From assembly GCA_002825465.1 (NCBI GenBank), contig PJER01000012.1, forward strand, positions 5,034 through 69,033: a DNA stretch of 64,000 nucleotides, written 5' to 3'. Under the pieces are notes generated by a model that worked only from the letters and a program-made list of their open reading frames with translations, searched no databases and was not told the DNA's origin. Position 1 is the stretch's first letter. Each line of letters opens with the position of its first letter. This DNA is from Candidatus Thorarchaeota archaeon MP8T_1 (GTDB lineage: Archaea > Asgardarchaeota > Thorarchaeia > Thorarchaeales > Thorarchaeaceae). Made by a program: the position numbers and the translations under genes. This document shows positions 14,635-27,259 of this stretch, piece by piece.

Positions 14635-16479
14635 TTAATCACTATTCATGTAAGGATCTTCGTCGACCTCAATATCAGCATAACCAACATCCTTGAGTAG
14701 GCGCTCAATTGATTCCGCACCTGTTACCCAAGTGACTCCCCAGGTATTATCTTCCTTTAATCGTAATTCAACGTCAGGGAGGTCTCCAAGTAGATTATGG
14801 TCCATCTCGATTGCATCCTGATATGCTCCAGCTAGTGCAATGAGGAAATGAGACCCAGGTATCTTCTCTAGAATGCCTACAGGAATCCCATCGCCCATCT
14901 CTCCACCTGGCATTGTAAGTGGTCTATCGTCCTTTGAGAACCATACTTTTTCTGTATCCTGTCTGTAGAAATGTGCAATCTCACCATCTGAATCACAAGT
15001 GATATCCACTAATCTCACTGTGGTTTCAGGATGAACATGTAAGTTCGAAATAGGTATGACTGGGAAGTGTTGTTGGACAAGTACATAATCTGCAACACTA
15101 TTGAAGACACTAAAATTGCCTACAGCAATATGCTCTGGATGCCAGAAATCTCTGATTTGATTTTCATTAATGAAGGATTGTAATCCTAGAGTTCTTAGTC
15201 TCTGTCTAGTTGTTCTTTCAAGGATTCCCACAATCATCTCATTTTCAAAGATGAAACGTAATCCAGCCAAGGTCATTCCACCGAACACTGCATGAAATTC
15301 GTTCCATATAGCGACTAGTTCATCGAGAGTTGTTGCGGTGTTTATCTTCTCACTATACTCCTTCTCTTTTGCTTGTGCAGTTTCAGATTCGTACTGGCCA
15401 CCCGGTGCAGGAAAGACCGACCTGACTTCCAGAGCTTCAACAATGATAAGTGCAGCAAGAGCGGTAATCCCCCGACCCGACTCAATCATAATATTCGGAG
15501 CAGGATGTTTATCATGTTCTTCTGCTAGATTCTCCATTACTCCTTGTACAAGATTTCTTGCATATTGGTACATCAAATCTGGTGGATGTTTGCCAGTATA
15601 ATCGATAGCCAATCCACCTCCAAAATCTATATTCTCTAATTTTTCGAGACCCATGTCCCTCAGTTCCGAATAGAGGCTTGTCAGAAATTGGCCAAACCTA
15701 GTGAAAGAATTAAGATCGGTGATTTGGGATCCTGCATGACCTAGAATGGTTGTGACTGATTCTGCAAATCCTGCTTGAGTGAGTAGATCTACAACATTAT
15801 ACAGGTCATGAATACTTAATCCGAATTTCGAGTCTCTTCCAGTAGAGTGTGACCAATGTCCTTCTACATTGAGGTATGGTTTGATTCTGAAGACCAATTC
15901 TGTCTTTGACGGGTAAAAGTGTTCTACAATCATTCTGGCTTCATGAAGTGATTCTATTGAAATTGCTATTCTGAATCCTTTTTCCACAGAATCTCGAATC
16001 AGTCGAAGATAATCCGGATCTTTTGCACCGTTACAGACAATGCGTCGATGTTTCTCATTTTTTATCACAGAGGTGATTAGAAGTAATTCCGCCTTTGTTC
16101 CAGCTTCTAATCCATAATCTGAATCTGAACGTATAACTGAGGTCACGAAATCGCTTCTTTGGTTTACTTTAACAGGATAGATTCCTATGAATTTTCCATC
16201 GTAACTTAATTCCTCGAATACACTCTCGAATGCAGTTCTCAGCTTCTTGATTTGATATGTAATCAGTTGTGGGATTCTTAGAGTAAAAGATGAGACAAAG
16301 CCTGGAGATTTACCATTTACTGATTTTATCTTCTGGACAATCTCTTTGATAGTGATTGTTTTATCCAACAGTTTGATGCAGAGCTCGCCATCATTGGTGA
16401 TATCTAGGAAATGTAAATCATTCCTTCCAACTCCAAATATGGTCCTTGCTTTGTCAACAGACCATGTCCCATCTGTCAT
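14635..16479 (-). CDS. speA: Biosynthetic-type arginine decarboxylase (SpeA-like)
   Basis: About 614 residues, close to bacterial SpeA (~630-660). This PLP enzyme with an alanine-racemase-like barrel would convert arginine to agmatine and CO2, the first step of one polyamine route. The PLP lysine is in GIYPVKVNQ (Lys104 from my start). NIDFGGGLAIDY binds the cofactor phosphate and the IMIESGRGI block is present. I start at the ATG at 16479, which has AGAGGA just upstream. A longer frame to 16569 would overlap the preceding gene by 59 bases. It is 31 bases downstream of the dCache-HAMP gene and could be the last gene of that operon. SpeA is mostly bacterial, so transfer is possible. Confidence 0.86.
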   Translation of the reverse strand: MTDGTWSVDKARTIFGVGRNDLHFLDITNDGELCIKLLDKTITIKEIVQKIKSVNGKSPGFVSSFTLRIPQLITYQIKKLRTAFESVFEELSYDGKFIGIYPVKVNQRSDFVTSVIRSDSDYGLEAGTKAELLLITSVIKNEKHRRIVCNGAKDPDYLRLIRDSVEKGFRIAISIESLHEARMIVEHFYPSKTELVFRIKPYLNVEGHWSHSTGRDSKFGLSIHDLYNVVDLLTQAGFAESVTTILGHAGSQITDLNSFTRFGQFLTSLYSELRDMGLEKLENIDFGGGLAIDYTGKHPPDLMYQYARNLVQGVMENLAEEHDKHPAPNIMIESGRGITALAALIIVEALEVRSVFPAPGGQYESETAQAKEKEYSEKINTATTLDELVAIWNEFHAVFGGMTLAGLRFIFENEMIVGILERTTRQRLRTLGLQSFINENQIRDFWHPEHIAVGNFSVFNSVADYVLVQQHFPVIPISNLHVHPETTVRLVDITCDSDGEIAHFYRQDTEKVWFSKDDRPLTMPGGEMGDGIPVGILEKIPGSHFLIALAGAYQDAIEMDHNLLGDLPDVELRLKEDNTWGVTWVTGAESIERLLKDVGYADIEVDEDPYMNSD

Positions 16480-16510
16480 TTTGATTCCTCTGATTGGTGG
16501 AGAGAGGAAC

Positions 16511-17950
16511 TTATTCGTCTTCCTCTCGTATTGTATCAAGCATTCCTTGGAATGCTCTAGCCAATTCACCTATCTCATCATCTTTTGAGATATACGATTG
16601 GTCCACCTGTAGATCTGCTGTATCCAAAGGTTGGTCTCGGATTCTTGCAGCTGCATTTCTGGTGGCAAGATCCATCAGATATTGCAGAGGTCTTGTGATT
16701 GTATTGGATATCGACACTGCAACAATTCCTGCTATCACTATTCCACCAATAGTGACGAAAAGTATGAACTGAGCTGCTTCCGCATTTGCTGCAGCAATTC
16801 GGGCTTCAAGTGGTGGTATAGATTGTAGCACTTCATCAAGTGGAACTGATATTACACAGATATACCCTCCTTTGCCAACGGGAGTGAATACCAATATTCT
16901 CTCACTGTCATCTCTGGTGTATCGTAGAGTTCCAGAAGTTTCTGAGACTAGAACCGCTCTGATAGTGTCCATGTCATTTTCATCGAGTGGATTTGCTGAA
17001 CTAGTATCTTGTTCTACAGAGAGAAGATATGGTAGTCCACCAAAGTAATCTGTGTCCTCTACTTCAGGATGTGCAACAATTTCACCAAGTGAGTTGAGGA
17101 GAAATGCATAGCCACTCTCCAAAACACTCACGTCAATGACTTTGTCTTGGATATCACTAATGGTAATATCACCTGAAATAACAGCTAGTGGAAGTCCCCC
17201 ACTATAGACGAGTTTTCCGATTGAGATTAGTAAGACATCATCAAACTCATCATAATACGGATCGACAAAGACAACGTCACCACGACCGTCAGCAATCGCA
17301 GTATACCAATCTTCATCTGTTGGATCATATCCTGGGAAATCAAGGAGACTTCCTGGATAGTTGATGAAGAGACCATCATCGGCAAATGCGATATACAGCC
17401 ATCTGAAATCAAGTTGATCATGAATTGCCTTGAAGATGTAATCCATGTTTGAGACCGTACCTAACTTGTCTGCCTCAGCCGCTTCATAGATTCCATAATT
17501 TGATGCGTCGTAGTCTCGTTGGAACCAACTACTATAGGTCCATGAAACATTCAGATCGTAATTTGCATCATAGTGATTATCTGAAGGGGGTGATGCGATG
17601 GATGCGTTCTCAAAGATCTCATGGAAGTAGACCTCCCTATTTGCATATGTCGAACCTGCAGCAAATAGTGATTCTAGTTCTGTTGCGGCAGCCTCTATCA
17701 TACTCTGCGCACTTGCTAACTTCTGGTTGATAACTAAAGCAGTCTTTTCAGCGGTCTTTTCCATGTTCGTTTCAATCTGTGTTTCAAGAGCCAATGAGCT
17801 CTGGTCTCTCGTGAAATTACCTATGATATTAACAAAGGTCAAGGACACGAATCCAGTTGCTGACAGCGAAATCAGTGAAATCACTAGGAATGTCAAGATG
17901 ACATTGGTTCGGAATTTTCCTTTCTTCTTTGTTTGTGTTGATTGTGCCAT
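16511..17950 (-). CDS. dCache-HAMP transmembrane receptor without output domain
   Basis: A 479-residue membrane receptor. TM1 is at ~19-42. A large extracellular double-Cache sensor spans roughly 60-380; typical dCache features are the WYTAIADGRG and VFVDPYYD stretch and SGYAFLLNSLGEIVAHP. TM2 is at ~395-418 and a HAMP linker follows (NTITRPLQYLMDLA ... ISKDDEIGELARAFQGML). The protein then stops: there is no kinase, methyl-accepting or cyclase domain. Its sensor resembles that of the 952-residue neighbour 13 bases upstream, so both may sense the same small ligand, and signal output may pass through that partner. A strong GGAGGAG precedes the start. Confidence 0.85.
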   Translation of the reverse strand: MAQSTQTKKKGKFRTNVILTFLVISLISLSATGFVSLTFVNIIGNFTRDQSSLALETQIETNMEKTAEKTALVINQKLASAQSMIEAAATELESLFAAGSTYANREVYFHEIFENASIASPPSDNHYDANYDLNVSWTYSSWFQRDYDASNYGIYEAAEADKLGTVSNMDYIFKAIHDQLDFRWLYIAFADDGLFINYPGSLLDFPGYDPTDEDWYTAIADGRGDVVFVDPYYDEFDDVLLISIGKLVYSGGLPLAVISGDITISDIQDKVIDVSVLESGYAFLLNSLGEIVAHPEVEDTDYFGGLPYLLSVEQDTSSANPLDENDMDTIRAVLVSETSGTLRYTRDDSERILVFTPVGKGGYICVISVPLDEVLQSIPPLEARIAAANAEAAQFILFVTIGGIVIAGIVAVSISNTITRPLQYLMDLATRNAAARIRDQPLDTADLQVDQSYISKDDEIGELARAFQGMLDTIREEDE

Positions 17951-17963
17951 TTTTCATCTCCTC

Positions 17964-20822
17964 CTAGTAATCTACTGTCGTTCCTCCCACTTCGAGTTGT
18001 GCCATCAAGACTCCAATCTTCTCAAAGGCTTTCTCAATATCTAATCTCACATCTACACTATCTACAACTGATAGATACTGTCCCTGTGGGATATTATCAC
18101 AGATTGACTCCAGAAGTTCTTCTGTTGTCATCCTTTGCCCAGTCTTTCTTGACTTCAGTCTCTTCTTTGTATCAACTGGTAGTGCAAGTTCCTGACCCAC
18201 TCCAATGACAATGAGGTTGACATCGAGATGATTGTCTCGAATGAATCCCTCTATCGTGCGTGGTCTATTACGCGCAATTCGATCTCTCTCAGTGAATATC
18301 CCCTCAAGAGCATCCAGTGAATAAGTGTCAGAACTATTATCTTGCCCATCAGTCAATGCAATGACCCATCTGTGCTCGCTTGACTCAATCTTGTTCAGTT
18401 CTTCAAGAGCCCTTCCTAATGCATCATAGAATGCAGTAGCATAGTTTGGATACTTGAGTGAATCAAGAGCTCGTACAATCTTACTTTCATCCTCCGAAAC
18501 ATCACCTTTGACGGTGAGTGGGAGTATCTCACGGTAGGTTGAATTGAAGATGATTATTGAGACTGCATCCTGTGGATTGACTTGACTATGCAGAATTTCC
18601 TTTGCTCCGTCTACTGCTGCTTTAATTCTATTCTGAGCCTGCATGCTTCCCGAATAGTCAATTACAAAGGTGACGCTCTTCTTGTATAGGATTGAACGTC
18701 TGAGTCGTTCTGCTTTTCTTCGGACTTCGTGACTTGGTTTATTCAACTGATCTAGCACATCAGCTAGTCGTTGCATTGCAAAAACTACAAGCCACATTTC
18801 GTCAGTAGCTTGACCAAATTTAATTGCACTATTATATTCGTCCTCAGCTTTGTTCCACTTTGTTTGAACTTGATAAAGTTCTCCTTCATGATAGTGGATG
18901 TAGGCAAGACTTCTATCATATCCAATGGATTTGGCAGTCTTCTGTGCTTCATCAAACTTAGATTGTGCTTGACTATACCGACCATCTCGCATCAGGACTA
19001 GACCCATTGCATCATACCTTCTGGCAAGACCATATGTATTCTTGATTGTTAGATCAATTGCTTCTGCATCTTCTAGAAGGGTCATAGCTCGCTCCACATT
19101 TTTACGATCCATCTCAACGAGTGCCATGTTATGATACGTTGATGCTATTCTCATCATTGCATCCTTCTCATCTGCTCCTTCTTCCTTTGCACGTTCGAGA
19201 AGTCGCTGAGAAATAGATAGAGATTGATTGTAGTAGTCCATCGCATTGGCAGTATCTCCCCTTTGTCGGAAGACATTGCCAATATTGAGGAGCATAGTTT
19301 GTTCTCCAACATCAATCTGGAGTCTTCTACTTATTTCAAGGAGATTCTGATAGTTTGCCAGAGCACGTCTTAGGTCTCCTCGGATAAATGCCTGATTTCC
19401 AAAACGACATGCTTCTTGGAAACTTAACAAGGCATCTACTGTTGTCCCTACTTCTTCATACATTGCTCCCGCAGTTGTTACACCTCGCGTGAAGTCTTGT
19501 TTTGCCATTTTATTCACTAATCGAGTCATCTCACTTATTGGTTCAACCACTGCTCTGCCTCTTCTTGAGGAAACTGTTGATACAACTGCTGCAACTGCTG
19601 CAAGGATTCCTGCTAAGACACCAGTGAGTATCAAAGTTCTAGTTGCAACAAGATTGAGAATCTCTGTAGCTGGTGCTACAACATCTGCATCAGGAACTAC
19701 AACTACTAGAATGTAATCTGTGTTTAGAATGTTCACAAACGAAAGATGCCATGTCTGACTATCTTTCTGATATTCTAGAAGTCCACTTTCTTCTGTAAGT
19801 ACATGAGTATTCAATAGATTACCGAAAGCAGTGGCTTCTGAACTACCTGTTGTACCAAATTCAAGAGTTTCAATTGATGCAACATCTTCATCAAACAGTG
19901 GCTGTTCTGGATGAGCCACGACATCCCCATTCTTATCAAGAAGAAATGCATAACCATTGGTTGAAACGTCTAGATTGAGAACATTATCAAGTACGGTACT
20001 CATTGTAACATCTGCAGAGACTACACCGATAAGAGTCCCATTATCATAATACACTGGTCTTCCCATAGAAATGACCAAACCAACTGGATCGATATACGGT
20101 GCGGTGAATGTGATACTGTTATCTGATTCATCCACTGTTGCAACGCTTGTGTACCACTCTTCACTATTAGCATCATAATCTTGACCTGGTCCATTCCAGT
20201 CATAGAAATAGGATAATTGATCAAAGGGATAGTTCCTAAACAAGTGCTGATCGGATACAGCCAAATCAAAGCCCATGTAAAGCCACTTGTAGTCTGGATT
20301 CATAGCATGCAATGATTTGAAAATATCAATCATATTTGACGAATAATCAAGTGCGTTTGCTGTTAGTACAGAATGGTCCAGTGGATCATTATTGTTCCAT
20401 TCATTACGAGGTATGAAATAACAATCGGTTTCAAATGAGATATAATCCGATTCATAGGACTCTGTAATCTCGGGGTCTGTTTCAAACGTCAACGCACCTA
20501 CACTTGGGTCCCATACAGGATCCCAATAATGCGAATATTGTGGCGTTGCAGAAATCCTGTTGTTAAACAAATCTTCACAATATTGCTCCATCATATAGAC
20601 TCCATCGATATAGCTTTGCCATCTCTCCTGAATGAAGAGTGCTGTATCATTAGATAGTCTCTGGAGGTTTTCGAGTTCCTCAGCTTTTAACGCCTCAGCA
20701 GCATCTCCTGCATTTGCATTGGATACGGTGAAGATCTCACCGATTGATAATGCTGAAATGACCAGCATGGGAACCAATGCCACAACGACGAATGTGACAA
20801 CTATTCTCTTTGAGATATCCAT
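17964..20822 (-). CDS. dCache-HAMP-TPR-VWA receptor
   Basis: A 952-residue protein with an unusual domain order. TM1 (~8-30) leads to an extracellular dCache sensor (~45-375; WYTSVATV, FTAPYIDP and NGYAFLLDKNGDVVAHP are Cache-like). TM2 (~388-412) leads to a HAMP-like linker. About six TPR-type repeats follow (~460-700; e.g. RALANYQNLLEISRR, NAMDYYNQSLSISQRL, KAEDEYNSAIKFG). A cytoplasmic von Willebrand A domain closes the protein, with an intact MIDAS (VIDYSGSMQ near residue 722 and ALTDGQDNSS). No kinase is present. It would convert ligand binding outside into TPR/VWA-mediated assembly inside. It is in a tight operon with a propeller protein and a second dCache receptor. Confidence 0.86.
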   Translation of the reverse strand: MDISKRIVVTFVVVALVPMLVISALSIGEIFTVSNANAGDAAEALKAEELENLQRLSNDTALFIQERWQSYIDGVYMMEQYCEDLFNNRISATPQYSHYWDPVWDPSVGALTFETDPEITESYESDYISFETDCYFIPRNEWNNNDPLDHSVLTANALDYSSNMIDIFKSLHAMNPDYKWLYMGFDLAVSDQHLFRNYPFDQLSYFYDWNGPGQDYDANSEEWYTSVATVDESDNSITFTAPYIDPVGLVISMGRPVYYDNGTLIGVVSADVTMSTVLDNVLNLDVSTNGYAFLLDKNGDVVAHPEQPLFDEDVASIETLEFGTTGSSEATAFGNLLNTHVLTEESGLLEYQKDSQTWHLSFVNILNTDYILVVVVPDADVVAPATEILNLVATRTLILTGVLAGILAAVAAVVSTVSSRRGRAVVEPISEMTRLVNKMAKQDFTRGVTTAGAMYEEVGTTVDALLSFQEACRFGNQAFIRGDLRRALANYQNLLEISRRLQIDVGEQTMLLNIGNVFRQRGDTANAMDYYNQSLSISQRLLERAKEEGADEKDAMMRIASTYHNMALVEMDRKNVERAMTLLEDAEAIDLTIKNTYGLARRYDAMGLVLMRDGRYSQAQSKFDEAQKTAKSIGYDRSLAYIHYHEGELYQVQTKWNKAEDEYNSAIKFGQATDEMWLVVFAMQRLADVLDQLNKPSHEVRRKAERLRRSILYKKSVTFVIDYSGSMQAQNRIKAAVDGAKEILHSQVNPQDAVSIIIFNSTYREILPLTVKGDVSEDESKIVRALDSLKYPNYATAFYDALGRALEELNKIESSEHRWVIALTDGQDNSSDTYSLDALEGIFTERDRIARNRPRTIEGFIRDNHLDVNLIVIGVGQELALPVDTKKRLKSRKTGQRMTTEELLESICDNIPQGQYLSVVDSVDVRLDIEKAFEKIGVLMAQLEVGGTTVDY

Positions 20823-20883
20823 TTTCTCTTTCTCCGTACGTTATCATAAATTCCATTCTTGACCATCATTTCTAATGAATTTC

Positions 20884-22320
20884 CTACCCTGTCTGTGCTC
20901 TCAGTTCCTCAACGAGTCTTTCTGCAAATTCACGAGAGCTCATTTTCTCATCTAATGCAAATAAGTCTCCATTTAATGTGCCTTGAATAATTCCCTCTCC
21001 GAGAAGGATAATCAGTGTCCTTCTCAATAAAGAGCGATCAACACCTGTTTCCTTTTCCATATTGCTTACATTGACCGTATCTGCACCTTTTAGCAAATCT
21101 AGAAGGATTAATTCAATATTCTTTGCCTCTTTTTCTTGGATTTTCTTGTACTTGACTTTCTTAGTTCTGACAAAGGTACTCCCATCAATATACCCCTCTA
21201 TATCTCCACTCTGAATCATAGCTTGAAGACTTCGGCGAAGATTGTATGCTGCAGGTCGAGGTAGGGTTTTTCGAAGTATCCTATCCAACTCTTTTAATTT
21301 GATTTGAGAGTGTTTTCCAGTAATCGAATCAATACTTTCCTGAATGTATTCTTCAATCACGTATTCTTCAATGACCTCTAATGTTGCTCCGCAAGATTCA
21401 CACTTTGGTGTTTCCGGAGAGGCAGGCGCTCCACAGTTGCCGCATCTTATAGATCTTCGATAAAGAATTTCCTTTGTAGAACCAATTTGCTGAAGAATCA
21501 CTTTCTCACTTCGTGATGCTTTTCCTGATTCTTGAACTTCCCAGAAACTTAACCTTCTATCCTTCGTACTGACTACCAAGTATGCAATATCTGAAATATC
21601 ATCAGGTACTCCAGTTGCAATTGCTCGAGGTACATTACTGACTTCAAGCCGGTTAACTTCGTTTCCATCGATATCCCATATCCTGAGAGTTGACGAAAGA
21701 TCTCCTGTAACGAATAATACTCTTTCATCAAATGAGAGAACTGCAAAGACAGAGATTCTACTGCCAAGTTGCAGTTCTTTTAGTCGATATCCAGCTGAAG
21801 TCAGAATTGTTATCTTACCATTCTTATCTGCGATTACAACTTCTAGCTCAGTATCTTTTGTAATGTCTTCCAACCAGATATCTGCTATCGGACTATCAAC
21901 ATTTCTCGTGAAGATTGCATCCTTGTCGTTATTATAGAGAATCACTCTGTTATTTTGGAGAGCAACAGCAACCTCAGCAGCATCATCTCCATCAACATCT
22001 CGTGCATCACAAGCAACGACATCACTTTCCAATCGGATATTCCATACTGTACTACCTCTGTGATCAACAACAAGTACCTTCTTACCTACTCCCCCAACAA
22101 GAGCATCCATTCCTTCTCCCTCAATATCTGCAACTGCGATACATCTAACTTTACTACTCCACTTTCGAGTACTGTGCAGTGTGCCCTTTGAGTCGAAGAT
22201 TCTCATCCTGTCGCCATAATCAAGAGAAAACACCTGAGCACTTGCATCTCTTTTCTGTCTCACATAGACAGAGTATACATTTGCTGTAGTTGTAACACTT
22301 GCTACTGCACGAATCTTCAA
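20884..22320 (-). CDS. Beta-propeller, zinc-ribbon and winged-helix protein
   Basis: A 478-residue cytoplasmic protein. Residues ~1-275 are repeated beta blades with VADIEGEG, DVDGDDAAEV, DITKDTELEV and WDIDGNEV motifs, typical of FG-GAP/WD-like propellers. A zinc ribbon follows (CGNCGAPASPETPKCESCGA, ~290-315). The C terminus has helical winged-helix-like segments (KLKELDRILRKTLPRPAAY and VSNMEKETGVDRSLLRRTLIILLGEG). It starts 62 bases upstream of the receptor genes on the same strand and is likely the first gene of their operon. It is plausibly a scaffold or effector for the VWA receptor; direct function unknown. No signal peptide. Confidence 0.75.
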   Translation of the reverse strand: MKIRAVASVTTTANVYSVYVRQKRDASAQVFSLDYGDRMRIFDSKGTLHSTRKWSSKVRCIAVADIEGEGMDALVGGVGKKVLVVDHRGSTVWNIRLESDVVACDARDVDGDDAAEVAVALQNNRVILYNNDKDAIFTRNVDSPIADIWLEDITKDTELEVVIADKNGKITILTSAGYRLKELQLGSRISVFAVLSFDERVLFVTGDLSSTLRIWDIDGNEVNRLEVSNVPRAIATGVPDDISDIAYLVVSTKDRRLSFWEVQESGKASRSEKVILQQIGSTKEILYRRSIRCGNCGAPASPETPKCESCGATLEVIEEYVIEEYIQESIDSITGKHSQIKLKELDRILRKTLPRPAAYNLRRSLQAMIQSGDIEGYIDGSTFVRTKKVKYKKIQEKEAKNIELILLDLLKGADTVNVSNMEKETGVDRSLLRRTLIILLGEGIIQGTLNGDLFALDEKMSSREFAERLVEELRAQTG

Positions 22321-22389: not shown

Positions 22390-23466
22390 ATGAGCACTAG
22401 TAGAAAATGCACTGTTGGATTCCTCTGGAGTGAACTTCTTGAGACCTTTGATTTCGGAGAAAAGCATCCAATTCAAATTGGTCGTTTTACTATGCTTCAT
22501 GACTTTGTTGATGAGAAAGGTTTCCTGAAACAACCAAATGTTCACATGATAACGCCAGAGTTACTCTCCGAAGAACTCCTCTACAAGGTACACAATGACG
22601 AGTACCTGACAAAACTAAAGGAGATCTCCGAGACTGGAATAGGTGATATTGACATCGATACCCCTGGATTCAAGAATATCTACTTCAATACACGAATCAC
22701 ATCTGGTGCATCAGTCACAGGAGTTCGTTCTGTGATGTCTGGAGATGTTGATCATTTCATATCACCAACTGGTGGATTCCATCATGCGAAATATGAAGAT
22801 GGGGGAGGTTTCAGTATTGTCAACGATGTTGCAGCATGTGTATATGCATTGAAGGAACAAGGTCTCAAAAGAATCTTAATCACAGATTTTGATGTTCATC
22901 ATGCAAATGGGACACAGACATATTTCTACGATGATCCTGAGGTCATGCACATCTCGTTTCATGAAGATCCAGAATGGTTGTATCCTCACGATGGGTGGAT
23001 TACTGATATTGGAGATGGACCTGGTACTGGATATAACATCAATATGCACTTTCCGATGGATTCATGTGACTCTGTCTATCGATATGCTTTCGATGAATTA
23101 ATCCCTCCGTTGATTGATTTTTACAAGCCAGAATTCATCATTTTCATTCCAGGATTTGACAGTCTCTATACTGATCGATTGGCTCATCTCAACCTCACGA
23201 CTGATTTGATTCGCTATATCTCAGAATATATTCACTCTGCCGCTCATCTCCATTGCGATGGGAAGATGGGTGTCTTGACAGGGGGTGGATATACTCGAAA
23301 GTCATTGACATGGGGATTTGCTACTGTTATGTCTGTCCTTACTGGACATCCGTACCAGCCTCCACCGCAGACTCCGCCATATGATGATGATGAGGAGACT
23401 TGGGAGATAGTACGATCAAATGTTCGGCAAGTGAAGGAATTGGTCTTTTCTGAACTTGGTATCTAA
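22390..23466 (+). CDS. HDAC/AcuC family deacetylase
   Basis: A 358-residue arginase-fold deacetylase of the histone deacetylase / AcuC / acetylpolyamine amidohydrolase superfamily. The catalytic His pair is His131-His132 (GGFHHAK). Zinc ligands Asp168 and His170 sit in TDFDVHHANG, the third is Asp257 in IPGFDSLYTD, and the transition-state Tyr301 is in LTGGGY. In place of the usual GFDAH, it has GFDSLY. It would hydrolyse acetyl-lysine or acetylated polyamines; the arginine decarboxylase operon nearby makes a polyamine substrate worth considering, but this is inference. Its stop overlaps the stop of the convergent corrinoid-protein gene by 4 bases. Confidence 0.85.
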   Translation: MSTSRKCTVGFLWSELLETFDFGEKHPIQIGRFTMLHDFVDEKGFLKQPNVHMITPELLSEELLYKVHNDEYLTKLKEISETGIGDIDIDTPGFKNIYFNTRITSGASVTGVRSVMSGDVDHFISPTGGFHHAKYEDGGGFSIVNDVAACVYALKEQGLKRILITDFDVHHANGTQTYFYDDPEVMHISFHEDPEWLYPHDGWITDIGDGPGTGYNINMHFPMDSCDSVYRYAFDELIPPLIDFYKPEFIIFIPGFDSLYTDRLAHLNLTTDLIRYISEYIHSAAHLHCDGKMGVLTGGGYTRKSLTWGFATVMSVLTGHPYQPPPQTPPYDDDEETWEIVRSNVRQVKELVFSELGI

Positions 23467-24098
23467 GAGAGTTCTTCAAGGAATCTTTTGGCAATTTTGA
23501 CTGAACTCATTGCATCTTTTCCAAATGCATCTGCACCTGTATATTCAACAATACTCTGATCGATATCTCCTCCACCAATCATGACCTTTACTTTATCACG
23601 AAGTCCAGCTTCTTTTAGAGCTTCGATAGTTTTCTTCATAACATCATGAGTAATGGTGATTAATCCACTTAGAGCAAGTACCTTGGCACCAGTTTCTCTC
23701 AATTTATCAATGAATTTCTCAGCGGAAACATCCTCACCAAGATCAAATACCTCAAACCCATTTGACAGCAGAAATGCAACGACTAGGTTTTTTCCAATGT
23801 AATGAACATCGCCTTCAACTGTCCCAATTACGATCTTTCCACTTCCCAAACTCTTGTCTTGACTGGCTAGTAGTTTAGGTTCTAGAATCTCCATGGATCG
23901 TTTGAATAATTCCGCTGACATAACGAGTTCAACCAAAAAATACTCGTTATTGGAAAATCTTTCACCAACAATATCCATGCCTTTCTTCAAATCCCCGAGA
24001 ATATCAAATGGTTGTTTTCCTTCAGATAGATACTGATTTACGAGGGCAATCACTCTCTCATCATCAATATCTGCCATCGCGGTAACTAGGTCGGTCAT
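23463..24098 (-). CDS. Cobalamin-binding corrinoid protein (MtbC/MtaC-like)
   Basis: A 211-residue two-domain corrinoid protein. An N-terminal helical cap (~1-85) is followed by a Rossmann-like B12 domain. The cobalt ligand motif DxHxxG is Asp97-Val-His99-Tyr-Ile-Gly102 within GTVEGDVHYIGKN. The downstream SxL (LSGL) and GG (IGGGDID) motifs that hold the nucleotide tail are present. Such proteins shuttle methyl groups between a substrate methyltransferase and a pterin or CoM-type acceptor. No MttB, MtaB or MtbB methyltransferase is in the window. The activator gene lies 67 bases upstream on the same strand. Confidence 0.9.
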   Translation of the reverse strand: MTDLVTAMADIDDERVIALVNQYLSEGKQPFDILGDLKKGMDIVGERFSNNEYFLVELVMSAELFKRSMEILEPKLLASQDKSLGSGKIVIGTVEGDVHYIGKNLVVAFLLSNGFEVFDLGEDVSAEKFIDKLRETGAKVLALSGLITITHDVMKKTIEALKEAGLRDKVKVMIGGGDIDQSIVEYTGADAFGKDAMSSVKIAKRFLEELS

Positions 24099-24165
24099 AG
24101 GTTATTGCTCCCATCATATACAGGATTATGAATCTAAGGAGTCTTGCCTAATCATATATCTTTGG

Positions 24166-25755
24166 TTAGAATATCCCTATGAATTTCAGAAATGTTTCTT
24201 GGAATTTTTTATGAGATGCAAGGTCCACATGCATAATATCATCAACAAATATTTCTGCAATCTCACGATTCTTCTTTGAGAGTAGTAATCCCTTCGCCCC
24301 TTCTCCGGCTGCATTACCAACAGGGACGACCTGTGAGATATCGACTCTCGGAAGTAGTCCTATTGCCAATGCATTTGATGGACGAATATAATTACCAAAT
24401 GCTCCCGCAAGGAGAATTCTATCGATTTTTGATACATCCAACTCCGCCTCCTCAAGAAGCAAGGCACACCCTGTTCGGATTGCAGCTTTTGCTAGCTGTA
24501 CCTGTCTTACATCTTTCTGAGTGAAAAGAACTTGATTTCCTACTGCTGATTCTTTTTTGTTGACAATAGTATATGCTCGTCCTATTTTCTCCTCTTCTAT
24601 AATTCGTTTGGAGTTCTTTTTCATCTGTCCTGAATCGTCTAATATGCCCACTCTATGAAGTTCTGCGACGATATCTACAATGGCTGATCCACAAATACCT
24701 CGTGGGTCGATACCTCCTATAATTACGGTCTGTGGTCTATCATCTTTATTACCAATGGAGAGATACTCGATTGCTCCTTCTTGTCCTCTCATACCATGAA
24801 GTATTGTAGCTCCCTCAAAAGCTGGACCTGCTGCTGCTGAACAACAGTACATCTCACCTCGATTTGACAGTACTATTTCACCATTTGTGCCGATATCAAT
24901 ACCAAGTACCACATCATCTACTTGATCTAACCGTTGAGAAAGAATGAATCCTACTGTATCGCCCCCAACATATCCTGCAATATTCGGAGGGAGATATAGT
25001 TCTGCTGTTGATTCGGGCATCAATCCTATTTGTTTTGCATCAATTATTGTTGATCCAGTAATTGAAGGCGAATATGGTTTCATTCCTAGAGGTTGAGTAT
25101 CTGCTTTGAGAAGTAGATGTTGCATAACAGTATTACCAACTACAACCATTCGACTGAGCTGACTCAGACCTATGTGTGAATTATCTAGGAGGTGTGCTAT
25201 TTGTTGATTGAGACTATCAACAACTCTCTGTTGAAGAATTTCTGCACCTCCTTCTTTCGAGGCATACTTAATTCTAGAGATGACATCTTCTCCAAATGCA
25301 CTTTGCGGATTCAATGATTGAGATTGCGAAATCTGAATTCCGTTAGAAAGATCGAGAAGGTAGACAACTACTGTAGTCGTACCAAGGTCAACTGCAATAC
25401 CAAATTGATCATCAAGTCCAGAATCACCTATCCATTCTCTCGATTCAGATGATGTAAGAATCTGTATTTGTCCCTCTCTTTTCGGGATTAAGATTCTAGT
25501 TCTCTCAATTATCTTTTGTCTGCATGCCAAACGAATCCCATTCTCAATCTCCTTGTTGGTCAGATGTTCTAAATCACGTTCTAGTGGATCTCCCGCAGGA
25601 TGCATTGAAACTTTGCATTTCCCACATGTCCCCCTCCCTCCACAGTCATTTGGTATATCAAGACCCGCTAAATGGGCCGCACTAAGCACAGTAGTTCCAC
25701 CTTTGACTAACACCCGTAATCCAGATGGTTCAAAGATAACTACAACATCCTGCAT
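24166..25755 (-). CDS. Reductive activator of corrinoid proteins (RamA/RACo-like, DUF4445)
   Basis: About 529 residues from the ATG at 25755. The N-terminal plant-type 2Fe-2S ferredoxin has Cys38, 44, 47 and 78 (CGGRGTCGKC ... LACRQ). A linker follows and then an ASKHA-fold ATPase (FGIAVDLGTTTVVVYLLDL; VLGIDIGTNGEIVL; ILLAGAFGNYI). These proteins use ATP to push an electron onto inactive Co(II) corrinoid, restoring Co(I). A longer frame to 25902 would add 49 residues without family character. It is paired with the corrinoid protein gene and is divergent from the reductive-dehalogenase-like gene, giving a three-gene corrinoid block. Confidence 0.9.
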   Translation of the reverse strand: MQDVVVIFEPSGLRVLVKGGTTVLSAAHLAGLDIPNDCGGRGTCGKCKVSMHPAGDPLERDLEHLTNKEIENGIRLACRQKIIERTRILIPKREGQIQILTSSESREWIGDSGLDDQFGIAVDLGTTTVVVYLLDLSNGIQISQSQSLNPQSAFGEDVISRIKYASKEGGAEILQQRVVDSLNQQIAHLLDNSHIGLSQLSRMVVVGNTVMQHLLLKADTQPLGMKPYSPSITGSTIIDAKQIGLMPESTAELYLPPNIAGYVGGDTVGFILSQRLDQVDDVVLGIDIGTNGEIVLSNRGEMYCCSAAAGPAFEGATILHGMRGQEGAIEYLSIGNKDDRPQTVIIGGIDPRGICGSAIVDIVAELHRVGILDDSGQMKKNSKRIIEEEKIGRAYTIVNKKESAVGNQVLFTQKDVRQVQLAKAAIRTGCALLLEEAELDVSKIDRILLAGAFGNYIRPSNALAIGLLPRVDISQVVPVGNAAGEGAKGLLLSKKNREIAEIFVDDIMHVDLASHKKFQETFLKFIGIF

Positions 25756-25876
25756 TATGATACCTATTTTGTAAGATAGAATTGTTGCCTTTAAGGAAAG
25801 AGGTTCAAGTTTTAGCATCCTAATAGAAGAACGTAAAAGTATCTCTACATGAGATTGTTGAAAAGGAGTCATTTCT

Positions 25877-27259
25877 ATGTATATCTCAAAGACGTTGTGC
25901 AATCCACAAGTGTGTAAGTATGAATGTCGGACTGCATGCTCTCAAATTCATGGAGATGATTCACCACTTGGTTTTGGGAAGGAATCATTATACCCTGTCA
26001 TTGATGAAGGAACATGTACTGAATGTCTTGCGTGTGTTCGCGCTTGTCCCCTGAATGCTATTAGTATCAGTGAGCATCCAGATACTTTTCCTGAACCAAT
26101 TCCCCCTCCCCCTGTGGCCCCTATTTCTTCAGAACGTCCATATGAGGTTTCTAATACTCTATCTAGGATGTCAGAAGCTGATACAATCTTTGCACGTGTT
26201 CAGTTTGATCCTGATTATGAATTCTATAAGAAGACAGAATTCTATGGTGCTGAATTTATGATCTCCAAGGGAATTCCAGGATATGGTCGATTTGAACATG
26301 AACTGAGTGTAGCTGCTTGGGAATTATATGACGCCAGAAATTCAATCAGACGCCCAGGAATTGGACTTGACCCAAATGCTGATACAACTGGTAAGAGAAA
26401 TGTGACCAATCCTGTAGAACTTACTGCTATGGTCAAGAAGGCCAGTCTTTTCTTTGGTGCTGGATTAGTGGGCATTGCAGACCTAAATAGAGTCTGGCTG
26501 TATACCCATAACCGCAAAGGTGAACCGTATAATATACCTGAGTCCTATACCTATGCAATAGTATTGGCAATCGAGATGGACTATGATGCCATAGCAACAT
26601 CACCCACTTTCACAAGCGCGGCTGCTACAGGTCTCGGTTACTCAAAAATGGCTTTTATAGAAGCTGAACTTGCTTCATTCATTCGCAGAATGGGATATAA
26701 TGCAATGACCTGTGGAAATGAAGTGGGTCTAAGTGTCCCACTGGCAATAGATGCGGGGTTAGGCCAATATGGTAGACATGGTCTTCTGATATCAAAACCA
26801 TATGGTCCGCGAATTCGTATTGCCAAAGTGTTGACTGACATGCCACTAATCCCCGACTCTCCAGATCTTGACTTCTGCAGAGCAGTTGTTCGGTTCTGCG
26901 AGACCTGTGAGCGGTGTGCTCAGATGTGTCCATCAAAATCAATTCCCTTTGGAAAAGAACGAACATTGAAAGGAAAAACAATATCGAATAACTCTGGAAT
27001 CAAGAAATGGTATGTCAATGTTGAGACTTGTTATGGCTTCTGGATTGAGAATGGTTCAGAGTGTTCGAATTGCATTCGTTCATGTCCATACAATAAGAGA
27101 GATGGTAGATTACATCGAACAGTAATGTGGCTCATCCAAAATATACCTTCGTTAAACAAATTTATTGTAAAATTTGATAAATTAGCCGGTTATGGACAGC
27201 AAAAGACTAATGATAAGTTCTGGAAAAAGGTAGGTGGTGTTCCTCGTAAGATAGAATAA
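25877..27259 (+). CDS. Reductive-dehalogenase-like Fe-S protein with RLI-type N-terminal domain
   Basis: A 460-residue protein. The N terminus (~8-62) carries a C-x4-C-x3-C-x3-C set (Cys8, 13, 17, 21) and a C-x2-C-x2-C-x3-CP set (Cys47-57). The layout LCNPQVC...YPVIDEGTCTEC...NAISI closely follows the Fe-S domain of ABCE1/RLI. A proline-rich linker follows (~75-90). The rest is like cytoplasmic reductive dehalogenases (RdhA/TIGR02486): a corrinoid-type nitroreductase-fold core and two C-terminal cluster motifs, C341-x2-C-x2-C-x3-C351P and C385-x10-C-x2-C-x3-C403PYN. There is no Tat signal and no RdhB anchor. It may be a B12-dependent reductase or an electron donor to corrinoid proteins; epoxyqueuosine reductase is a less likely alternative. 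Confidence 0.78.
   Translation: MYISKTLCNPQVCKYECRTACSQIHGDDSPLGFGKESLYPVIDEGTCTECLACVRACPLNAISISEHPDTFPEPIPPPPVAPISSERPYEVSNTLSRMSEADTIFARVQFDPDYEFYKKTEFYGAEFMISKGIPGYGRFEHELSVAAWELYDARNSIRRPGIGLDPNADTTGKRNVTNPVELTAMVKKASLFFGAGLVGIADLNRVWLYTHNRKGEPYNIPESYTYAIVLAIEMDYDAIATSPTFTSAAATGLGYSKMAFIEAELASFIRRMGYNAMTCGNEVGLSVPLAIDAGLGQYGRHGLLISKPYGPRIRIAKVLTDMPLIPDSPDLDFCRAVVRFCETCERCAQMCPSKSIPFGKERTLKGKTISNNSGIKKWYVNVETCYGFWIENGSECSNCIRSCPYNKRDGRLHRTVMWLIQNIPSLNKFIVKFDKLAGYGQQKTNDKFWKKVGGVPRKIE

Follow-up and report, generated by a model that had tools for sequence, protein, structure and literature searches.

What does a membrane receptor signal with when the part that follows its membrane segments is neither a kinase nor a chemotaxis domain? 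The question is raised by a set of genes in a 64,000-nucleotide stretch of Candidatus Thorarchaeota archaeon MP8T_1 (contig PJER01000012.1, positions 5,034 to 69,033), hereafter the window. The set comprises a receptor with a dCache sensor, tetratricopeptide repeats (TPR) and a von Willebrand factor A (VWA) domain (TPRVWA), a second dCache receptor (dC2), a propeller protein (PROP) and a decarboxylase of the speA type:

20884..22320, minus strand: PROP, 478 residues; six-bladed beta-propeller, zinc ribbon and two winged helices
17964..20822, minus strand: TPRVWA receptor, 952 residues; first transmembrane helix (TM1), dCache, second transmembrane helix (TM2), HAMP-like region, TPR, VWA
16511..17950, minus strand: dC2 partner receptor, 479 residues; TM1, dCache, TM2 and HAMP, with no output domain
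14635..16479, minus strand: speA-like arginine decarboxylase of the pyridoxal phosphate (PLP) type; likely ATG at 16479, open reading frame (ORF) listed as 14635-16569

The answer that we regard as probable, if only just, is a hetero-oligomeric receptor for an amine of the polyamine kind, whose output would be the docking of VWA and PROP, with no phosphorylation involved. TPRVWA and dC2 would pair through their transmembrane and HAMP (and dCache) parts, and the ligand of the dCache pockets would be a small amine that lacks a free carboxylate, agmatine or a polyamine related to it being the likeliest. Its binding would shift the HAMP helices and thereby change the TPR-VWA head of the only subunit that bears an output. 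The VWA metal site and the C-terminal tail would then bind or release the cytosolic PROP, which would relay the signal by protein contacts, the likely beneficiary being amine metabolism via the adjacent arginine decarboxylase. Complex formation, the ligand, the contact between VWA and PROP and the effect on the decarboxylase are all steps that we infer from the sequences. The domains themselves are known; in the literature searched, which comprised open-licence papers, we found no account of this combination or of its paired logic. If true, a TPR-VWA receptor with an output-less partner and PROP would be a new type of output in the archaea closest to eukaryotes, and the proposal makes concrete predictions: the ligand is agmatine or polyamines, and the partner of VWA is PROP.

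The ORF coordinates agree with the first-pass annotation of this DNA, which had described three minus-strand genes with gaps of 61 and 13 bp and read them as an operon. The three genes stand, but the set does not end at 16511, as the speA-like gene follows dC2 directly on the same strand. Its likely start lies 31 bp past dC2, given that speA alignments begin at residues 29-36 in most loci, which points to the ATG at 16479. Within TPRVWA the following parts can be distinguished:

19689..20723, minus strand: dCache ectodomain, about residues 34-378
18690..19412, minus strand: TPR array, residues 471-711
17988..18683, minus strand: VWA domain, residues 714-945, with metal ion-dependent adhesion site (MIDAS) residues D722, S724, S726, T796 and D825
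17967..18002, minus strand: conserved C-terminal tail, residues 941-952, a possible docking peptide

Pfam recognizes dCache_1 (1.2e-14), TPR_12 (2.3e-14) and VWA_2 (5.4e-15) in TPRVWA, and dCache_1 (2.9e-20) and HAMP (7.8e-6) in dC2, with dCache_1 above its gathering score of 45 in both receptors (54.9 and 73.3 bits). The AlphaFold model of TPRVWA (mean predicted local distance difference test, pLDDT, 81; predicted template modelling score, pTM, 0.43) has a transmembrane helix, dCache at about 86-377, TM2, a poorly resolved HAMP-like helix pair, TPR at 484-711 and VWA at 715-945. By Foldseek and VIA-align, the ectodomain fold resembles alpha2delta-1 and PctA, and the TPRs are near those of LGN, Rap proteins and kinesin light chain. 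The MIDAS (DxSxS, T, D) is complete, its five residues being invariant in 30 of 30 aligned sequences (the window protein and 29 others that are 25-88% identical to it). The composition read by the first-pass annotation, dCache, TPR and VWA with an intact MIDAS in 952 residues, was thus confirmed, as was the output-less nature of dC2, in which nothing was matched C-terminal to HAMP. Its placing of the VWA after TM2 and HAMP was right for the VWA itself; the HAMP of TPRVWA gave no Pfam match at E<=1 and is presumed from where it lies, from the HAMP matches of two orthologues (3.8e-8 and 1.1e-8) and from two low-confidence helices in the model.

No MCPsignal, HisKA or HATPase domain was matched by Pfam in the receptors, in line with the absence of kinase and chemotaxis domains read earlier from the receptor, and TPRVWA carries no enzyme domain. 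MCPsignal was found in none of seven Thorarchaeota-type genomes and in two of three of the Heimdall/Hodarchaeal type, one of these under the cut-off; in genome G001 the TPRVWA/dC2 pair is the sole dCache found. The part of PMC10104139 available to us lists the families of amine dCache receptors as chemoreceptors, sensor kinases, second-messenger enzymes and phosphatases. The VWA metal site and the acidic tail would be natural docking points for PROP. An acidic tail pattern is present in 63 of the 66 receptor ORFs and in 22 of 748 ORFs of other kinds, a descriptive figure, as the pattern was picked after inspecting the tails (a narrower first pattern matched 43 of 66). Of the three receptors outside it, one is a piece of a broken gene, one runs into a contig end and one has a masked stretch. 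In the model the tail is disordered, its last blocks having pLDDT of 42 and 27.

How far is this gene set shared? At least 150 relatives of TPRVWA were found (7,991 candidates scored); among the 120 listed, identity ranges from 60 to 93% and coverage of the query from 74 to 100%, so the architecture is not a chance product. Where named, these 120 are mostly Thorarchaeota, with a few Sifarchaeia, Hermodarchaeota, Lokiarchaeota and Promethearchaeota. Of the 46 loci that came out of a scan of GTDB genomes, 41 are archaeal, either Asgard by name (38) or inside the Asgard phylum (3), and five are bacterial with the VWA part only. The archaeal loci reach down to 21-37% identity, under the titles Heimdallarchaeota, Hodarchaeum, Hermodarchaeota, Lokiarchaeia/Lokiarchaeota or just 'archaeon'; two titled Lokiarchaeota (L022 and L029; L numbers denote loci, G numbers genomes) are of Thorarchaeota type at 58-63% identity. 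Since the scan patterns were two VWA peptides, restriction to Asgard archaea is likely rather than proved. Among 49 plasmid records retrieved with the receptor none covered 80% of the query, and the best five matched the Cache part (two) or the TPR part (three). Within the phylum, 227 genomes were searched, with up to three candidates scored in each; 114 passed E<=1e-10 with some match, often one confined to TPR or Cache parts, and 71 were counted as having the receptor, whole or in part.

With iterated profiles the genes of 112 loci were tabulated, and linkage was counted over 70 TPRVWA ORFs or pieces (L047-L080 were omitted as repeats). At 67 of the 70, dC2 lies directly downstream on the same strand, of the remaining three, two lie at the end of a contig and one is the N-terminal fragment of a broken copy. 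Measured from longest-ORF starts, 62 of these 67 pairs are -4 to 16 bp apart, 37 of them 10-16 bp. PROP is found within 5 kb of the receptor at 53 of 70: upstream in 34 (the Thorarchaeota type plus L097/L098), downstream in 15 (e.g., L040, L087-L091, L094-L096, L101-L103) and downstream but convergent in four (L031, L033, L036, L099). The gene order of the window thus recurs in other Asgard genomes, where the first-pass annotation had proposed to look for it, and the linkage extends across classes. Neither of the objections that it had named against a dedicated system, an order lost in relatives or misassigned TPR/VWA regions, was borne out. One could argue that vertical synteny accounts for all of this with no joint function, the more so as HDAC, larE and peptidase genes are also conserved neighbours within Thorarchaeota-type loci. 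We consider this extremely improbable. The divergent loci keep the receptor, dC2, PROP and speA in changed arrangements when the other flanks are gone: none of 41 divergent loci gave a hit for the HDAC, corrinoid, corrinoid-activase, larE or peptidase genes (the flanks searched were at most 10 kb and in many cases less; the 41 include a duplicate, L115, and the three alpha2delta-like loci L106-L108 described below). The joint loss of the Cache domains speaks against it as well.

This joint loss is also what ties the two receptors to each other. In six Lokiarchaeal-like loci (L101-L105, L117) both Cache ectodomains are missing together: dC2 is a stub of 146-156 residues with TM1 joined to TM2-HAMP, and the receptor is a TM-HAMP-TPR-VWA protein of 575-577 residues in four of the six, being cut by the contig end in the other two. 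PROP lies downstream in five; the sixth contig is too short. We see no easy explanation for such a pattern other than that the two ectodomains act jointly and the inner parts share a task of their own, and we take it, at the level of gene content, as strong evidence for a single complex of TPRVWA and dC2. Along the same lines, a tree of 51 dCache domains has a TPRVWA clade (support 87) and a dC2 clade (support 92), except for the dC2 of L087 and L089 near the base; the similar branching inside the two clades suggests that the pair is old, the tree resting on one alignment with several weak nodes. A link of dC2 with PROP is provided by L093, where dC2 ends in a RING-like finger homologous to the finger of Hodarchaeal PROPs (pairwise blastp 2e-15 to 2e-13 with four PROPs, in a small search space). 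Taken together, the conserved domains, the linkage and the MCPsignal counts leave the earlier idea of a transmembrane system without kinase or chemotaxis domains well supported, as far as sequence comparison goes, in the form of a dedicated kinase-free receptor complex.

The Cache-less forms could be read differently, since their persistence means that the cytoplasmic portion does something even with no Cache sensor attached. The cytoplasmic VWA might be a structural or assembly module, for the cytoskeleton or membrane organization, that the Cache anchors or tunes, and not a signalling device in the strict sense; the fold of the TPRs, near LGN and kinesin light chain, would suit this. It appears very unlikely to us, because dC2 and the receptor of L101, which has no Cache, both retain HAMP, as one would expect if a signal is passed on, and because the pocket residues of dC2 are almost fixed. 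The TPR adaptors themselves (LGN/Pins, Rap/NprR) differ in lacking a VWA and in not being membrane receptors. Upstream of three Cache-less receptors there is a protein of 244-250 residues (L101:9858-10610, L102:4760-5494, L103:10385-11122) with no Pfam match in the L101 copy, the one scanned; it may be a replacement for the lost sensor.

If the pair is a sensor, what does it sense? Motif positions given in the available parts of PMC10104139 and PMC9901441 were placed on the window proteins through an alignment with PctA, and the pocket residues are as follows:

TPRVWA: Y216, E221, W223, Y224, Y243, D245, D271
dC2: Y208, E213, W215, Y216, Y232, D234, D261

The residues that hold the amino group of the ligand are kept in dC2: Y232 in 57 of 58 sequences, D234 and D261 in all 58 (PctA Y144, D146 and D173), along with W215 (51/58) and Y216 (57/58). 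The position of PctA R126, which takes the carboxylate, is occupied in the window by E221 (TPRVWA) and E213 (dC2), so the arginine of amino-acid sensors is absent from both. Of 58 dC2 rows, 32 have Glu at this position, 15 Asp, five Gln, four Arg, one Gly and one Tyr; of 55 TPRVWA rows, 35 have Glu, eight Gln, four Arg, four Ser, two Trp, one Tyr and one Phe. An acidic residue there suits a ligand that bears another positive charge where an amino acid has its carboxylate. For TlpQ, the portion of PMC6234866 at hand reports a strongly negative pocket, with Tyr208, Asp210 and Asp239 holding the primary amine and Glu170 a further nitrogen. The same portion has McpU clamping the amino group by Tyr/Asp/Asp as TlpQ does, and gives dissociation constants for agmatine of 150 nM (TlpQ) and 0.48 uM (McpU), both dCache polyamine receptors. 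The Asgard pair resembles them in its acidic pocket and this clamp, the Glu or Asp at the R126 position being a putative counterpart of Glu170. TlpQ and McpU differ in being chemoreceptors with a methyl-accepting chemotaxis protein (MCP) output. The AM motif of PctD, as given in the part of PMC10104139 available, is R103, D133, W155, F188, M215, S217 and D235.

The gene next to the pair fits such a ligand. Agmatine is what arginine decarboxylase makes from arginine. The window gene aligns along nearly its whole length with the biosynthetic enzyme SpeA (PDB arginine decarboxylases, 8e-59). In all, speA was detected in 59 of the 227 genomes, the receptor in 71 and both in 51 (Fisher p 9e-26, not corrected for phylogeny); in those 51 the two are less than 500 bp apart in 46, 6 kb apart in one and on separate contigs in four. 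Counted by locus, speA is within 8 kb of the receptor at 42 of 70: downstream in 38, divergent upstream in three (L031, L033, L036) and upstream on the same strand in one (L037). Many of the 28 receptors with no speA nearby are at contig edges, others are not (e.g., L040, L087, L093, L101).

The same neighbour could instead adjoin as a consumer of arginine, the pair sensing arginine or another amino acid in the manner of dCache_1AA. This is the alternative to which we give most weight, unlikely as we hold it to be. The best PDB sequence match of dC2 is PctA (2.9e-11), the amino-acid receptors PctA and PctB and their relatives leading the list; most motif positions are kept, with equivalents of PctA Y121, W128, Y129, Y144, D146 and D173 on the same dCache fold; and the substrate of the speA family is arginine. 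The Asgard proteins differ from PctA-type receptors in having Glu/Asp at R126, no MCP, kinase or cyclase output, and two different subunits. Against this reading, an acidic residue replaces the carboxylate-binding arginine in 47 of 58 dC2 rows, and Glu does so in 35 of 55 TPRVWA rows; the four dC2 rows that do have Arg (L087, L089, L090, L091, from G165, G095, G096 and G094) come from genomes in which speA was not detected at E<=1e-60. Genome G006 has a Glu-type pair beside speA and a second pair (Arg in TPRVWA, Asp in dC2) with no speA nearby. On balance we infer with good reason that the TPRVWA/dC2 pair senses an amine.

Several observations weigh against this amine receptor and the module built on it. 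Acidic dC2 also occurs where speA was not detected (L040, L088, L095, L096, L099; G010, G165, G163, G105, G053), so pocket and speA are not matched one to one, and the TPRVWA of Lokiarchaeal type has lost the amino-group residues. A sequence search with dC2 at E<=10 found neither TlpQ nor McpU, and the correspondence of TlpQ Glu170 to PctA Arg126 is presumed. The window decarboxylase scores 339 bits (5.4e-101) against NCBIfam PRK05354, under the equivalog cut-off of 369; elsewhere the score is 385 bits in L031 and under 369 in L038 and L082. Eight of the 59 speA genomes have no receptor and 20 of the 71 receptor genomes no speA (these assemblies being incomplete). In L081-L086, L038 and L093 no PROP turned up close to the receptor, and the linkage within Thorarchaeota is inherited and amounts to few independent events.

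The third protein, PROP, is composed much as the first-pass annotation had it, of a propeller, a zinc ribbon and winged helices:

21529..22320, minus strand: propeller, residues 1-264
21382..21453, minus strand: zinc ribbon, residues 290-313; Zn_ribbon_3 at 8.3e-4, 19.2 bits against a cut-off of 27
20950..21366, minus strand: two winged helices, residues 319-457; helix-strand order H-E-H-H-E-E twice in the model

Pfam places the beta-propeller PF25292 over its cut-off and the zinc-ribbon matches under theirs. The model (pLDDT 82, pTM 0.74) has 24 strands in six blades up to residue 263, followed by a low-confidence ribbon region and the two winged helices. By Foldseek and VIA-align the propeller resembles NHL, WD40 and BBSome/IFT propellers. 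Such a protein could carry the signal to DNA, as had been suggested, being a transcription factor held by VWA and let go on stimulation, a one-component route. Winged helices and a zinc ribbon would fit, and so would the 69-bp region upstream of PROP, which is common to a divergent gene. We find this quite unlikely, and the suggestion is weakened, because the propeller is constant between lineages and the C-terminal part is not: two winged helices and a ribbon in the window, a RING-like finger in Hodarchaeal PROPs, other parts in Lokiarchaeal ones. The first winged helix, moreover, has as its sole family match PCI, a scaffold domain, weakly (0.051). A constant propeller with a variable C-terminal part favours PROP as an adaptor over a DNA-binding regulator.

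The combination of Cache and VWA is known from the alpha2delta subunits of calcium channels, and the contrast drawn at the outset, that both domains are extracellular there, is right for TPRVWA: in alpha2delta and CACHD1 the VWA is inserted in the extracellular dCache, whereas in TPRVWA it comes at 714-945, after TM2 and the TPRs. According to the part of PMC9901441 available, the VWA of alpha2delta-1 is inserted in the first dCache and splits its motif. Other Asgard genomes do hold this topology. In G052 and G057 there is a dCache gene with a VWA inserted directly after the RxWY part of the motif, and G060 has apparently the same gene in two pieces:

L107 and L108 (e.g., L108:7042-10085), in pieces in L106: alpha2delta-like loci
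L108:10262-11746, L107:7089-8558 and L106:6560-8014: RING-like finger with leucine-rich repeats (L108 copy scanned)

Among PDB entries, L108:7042-8829 comes closest to the inter-alpha-trypsin inhibitor VWA (7e-22); the sequence also aligns through the insertion to alpha2delta-1 (152-484 with 176-533, 6e-18) and in pieces to CACHD1 (8e-21). Its 25 closest homologues, where named, are from Heimdallarchaeota, Kariarchaeaceae, Hodarchaeales/Hodarchaeota, Promethearchaeota and one Thorarchaeota. The VWA insert sits at the same place in an alpha2delta-1-like protein of a crinoid (P0291). Next after the alpha2delta-like gene comes a second dCache gene, and then the RING-like finger and leucine-rich-repeat protein, whose finger shares homology with the fingers of Hodarchaeal PROPs and the L093 dC2. 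In the protein P0255 (993 residues) the VWA-in-dCache, a second dCache, a transmembrane segment and a cysteine-rich tail form a single chain that passes the Pfam cut-off for VWA_N (40.2 against 34.7 bits), which we take to be an alpha2delta family. Judging by these genes, the alpha2delta layout exists in Asgard archaea, in Heimdall/Hodarchaeal genomes. It is possible, though we put it forward with considerable doubt, that all these belong to one Asgard-ancestral class of receptors, made of paired dCache membrane proteins, one VWA and a cytosolic zinc-finger/repeat partner, with phosphorylation-free docking at the metal site. It would have an amine-sensing branch with the VWA inside (that of the window) and a Heimdall/Hodarchaeal branch with the VWA outside; gene fusion as in P0255 would lead to the alpha2delta layout, and the calcium-channel subunit would be an Asgard heirloom. 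We do not rest descent of alpha2delta on the dCache tree, in which non-archaeal VWA-dCache is represented by only two sequences and bacteria by only three, on long branches. If they are related, the Asgard genes make the origin of a drug-target channel subunit testable.

A few further features of these loci deserve mention. In L014 (G012) an internal stop codon interrupts TPRVWA, and the larger part of dC2, together with speA, lies about 180 kb away on the chromosome; this may be a rearranged or decaying copy, or an assembly fault. A second PLP decarboxylase follows speA in L081-L083, L085, L086 and L112; its nearest relative is diaminopimelate decarboxylase (L082 copy scanned), so a role of this gene in L081-L086 as a polyamine enzyme is not clear. 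In the window, an HDAC-family gene (22390-23466) is divergent from PROP, with 69 bp between them, and is a neighbour in Thorarchaeota-type loci only. An acetylpolyamine deacetylase would have suited an amine system, but this assignment was dropped: HDAC10 (1.4e-28) ranks behind both HDAC6 (1.2e-52) and bacterial amidohydrolases, the top matches, and the gene's distribution is likewise contrary. Adjoining the locus, the region 23463-25902 contains a corrinoid protein of methyltransferase type (TIGR02370, 4e-51) and a corrinoid activation protein (AcsV model, 9e-118), each under the cut-off of its model.

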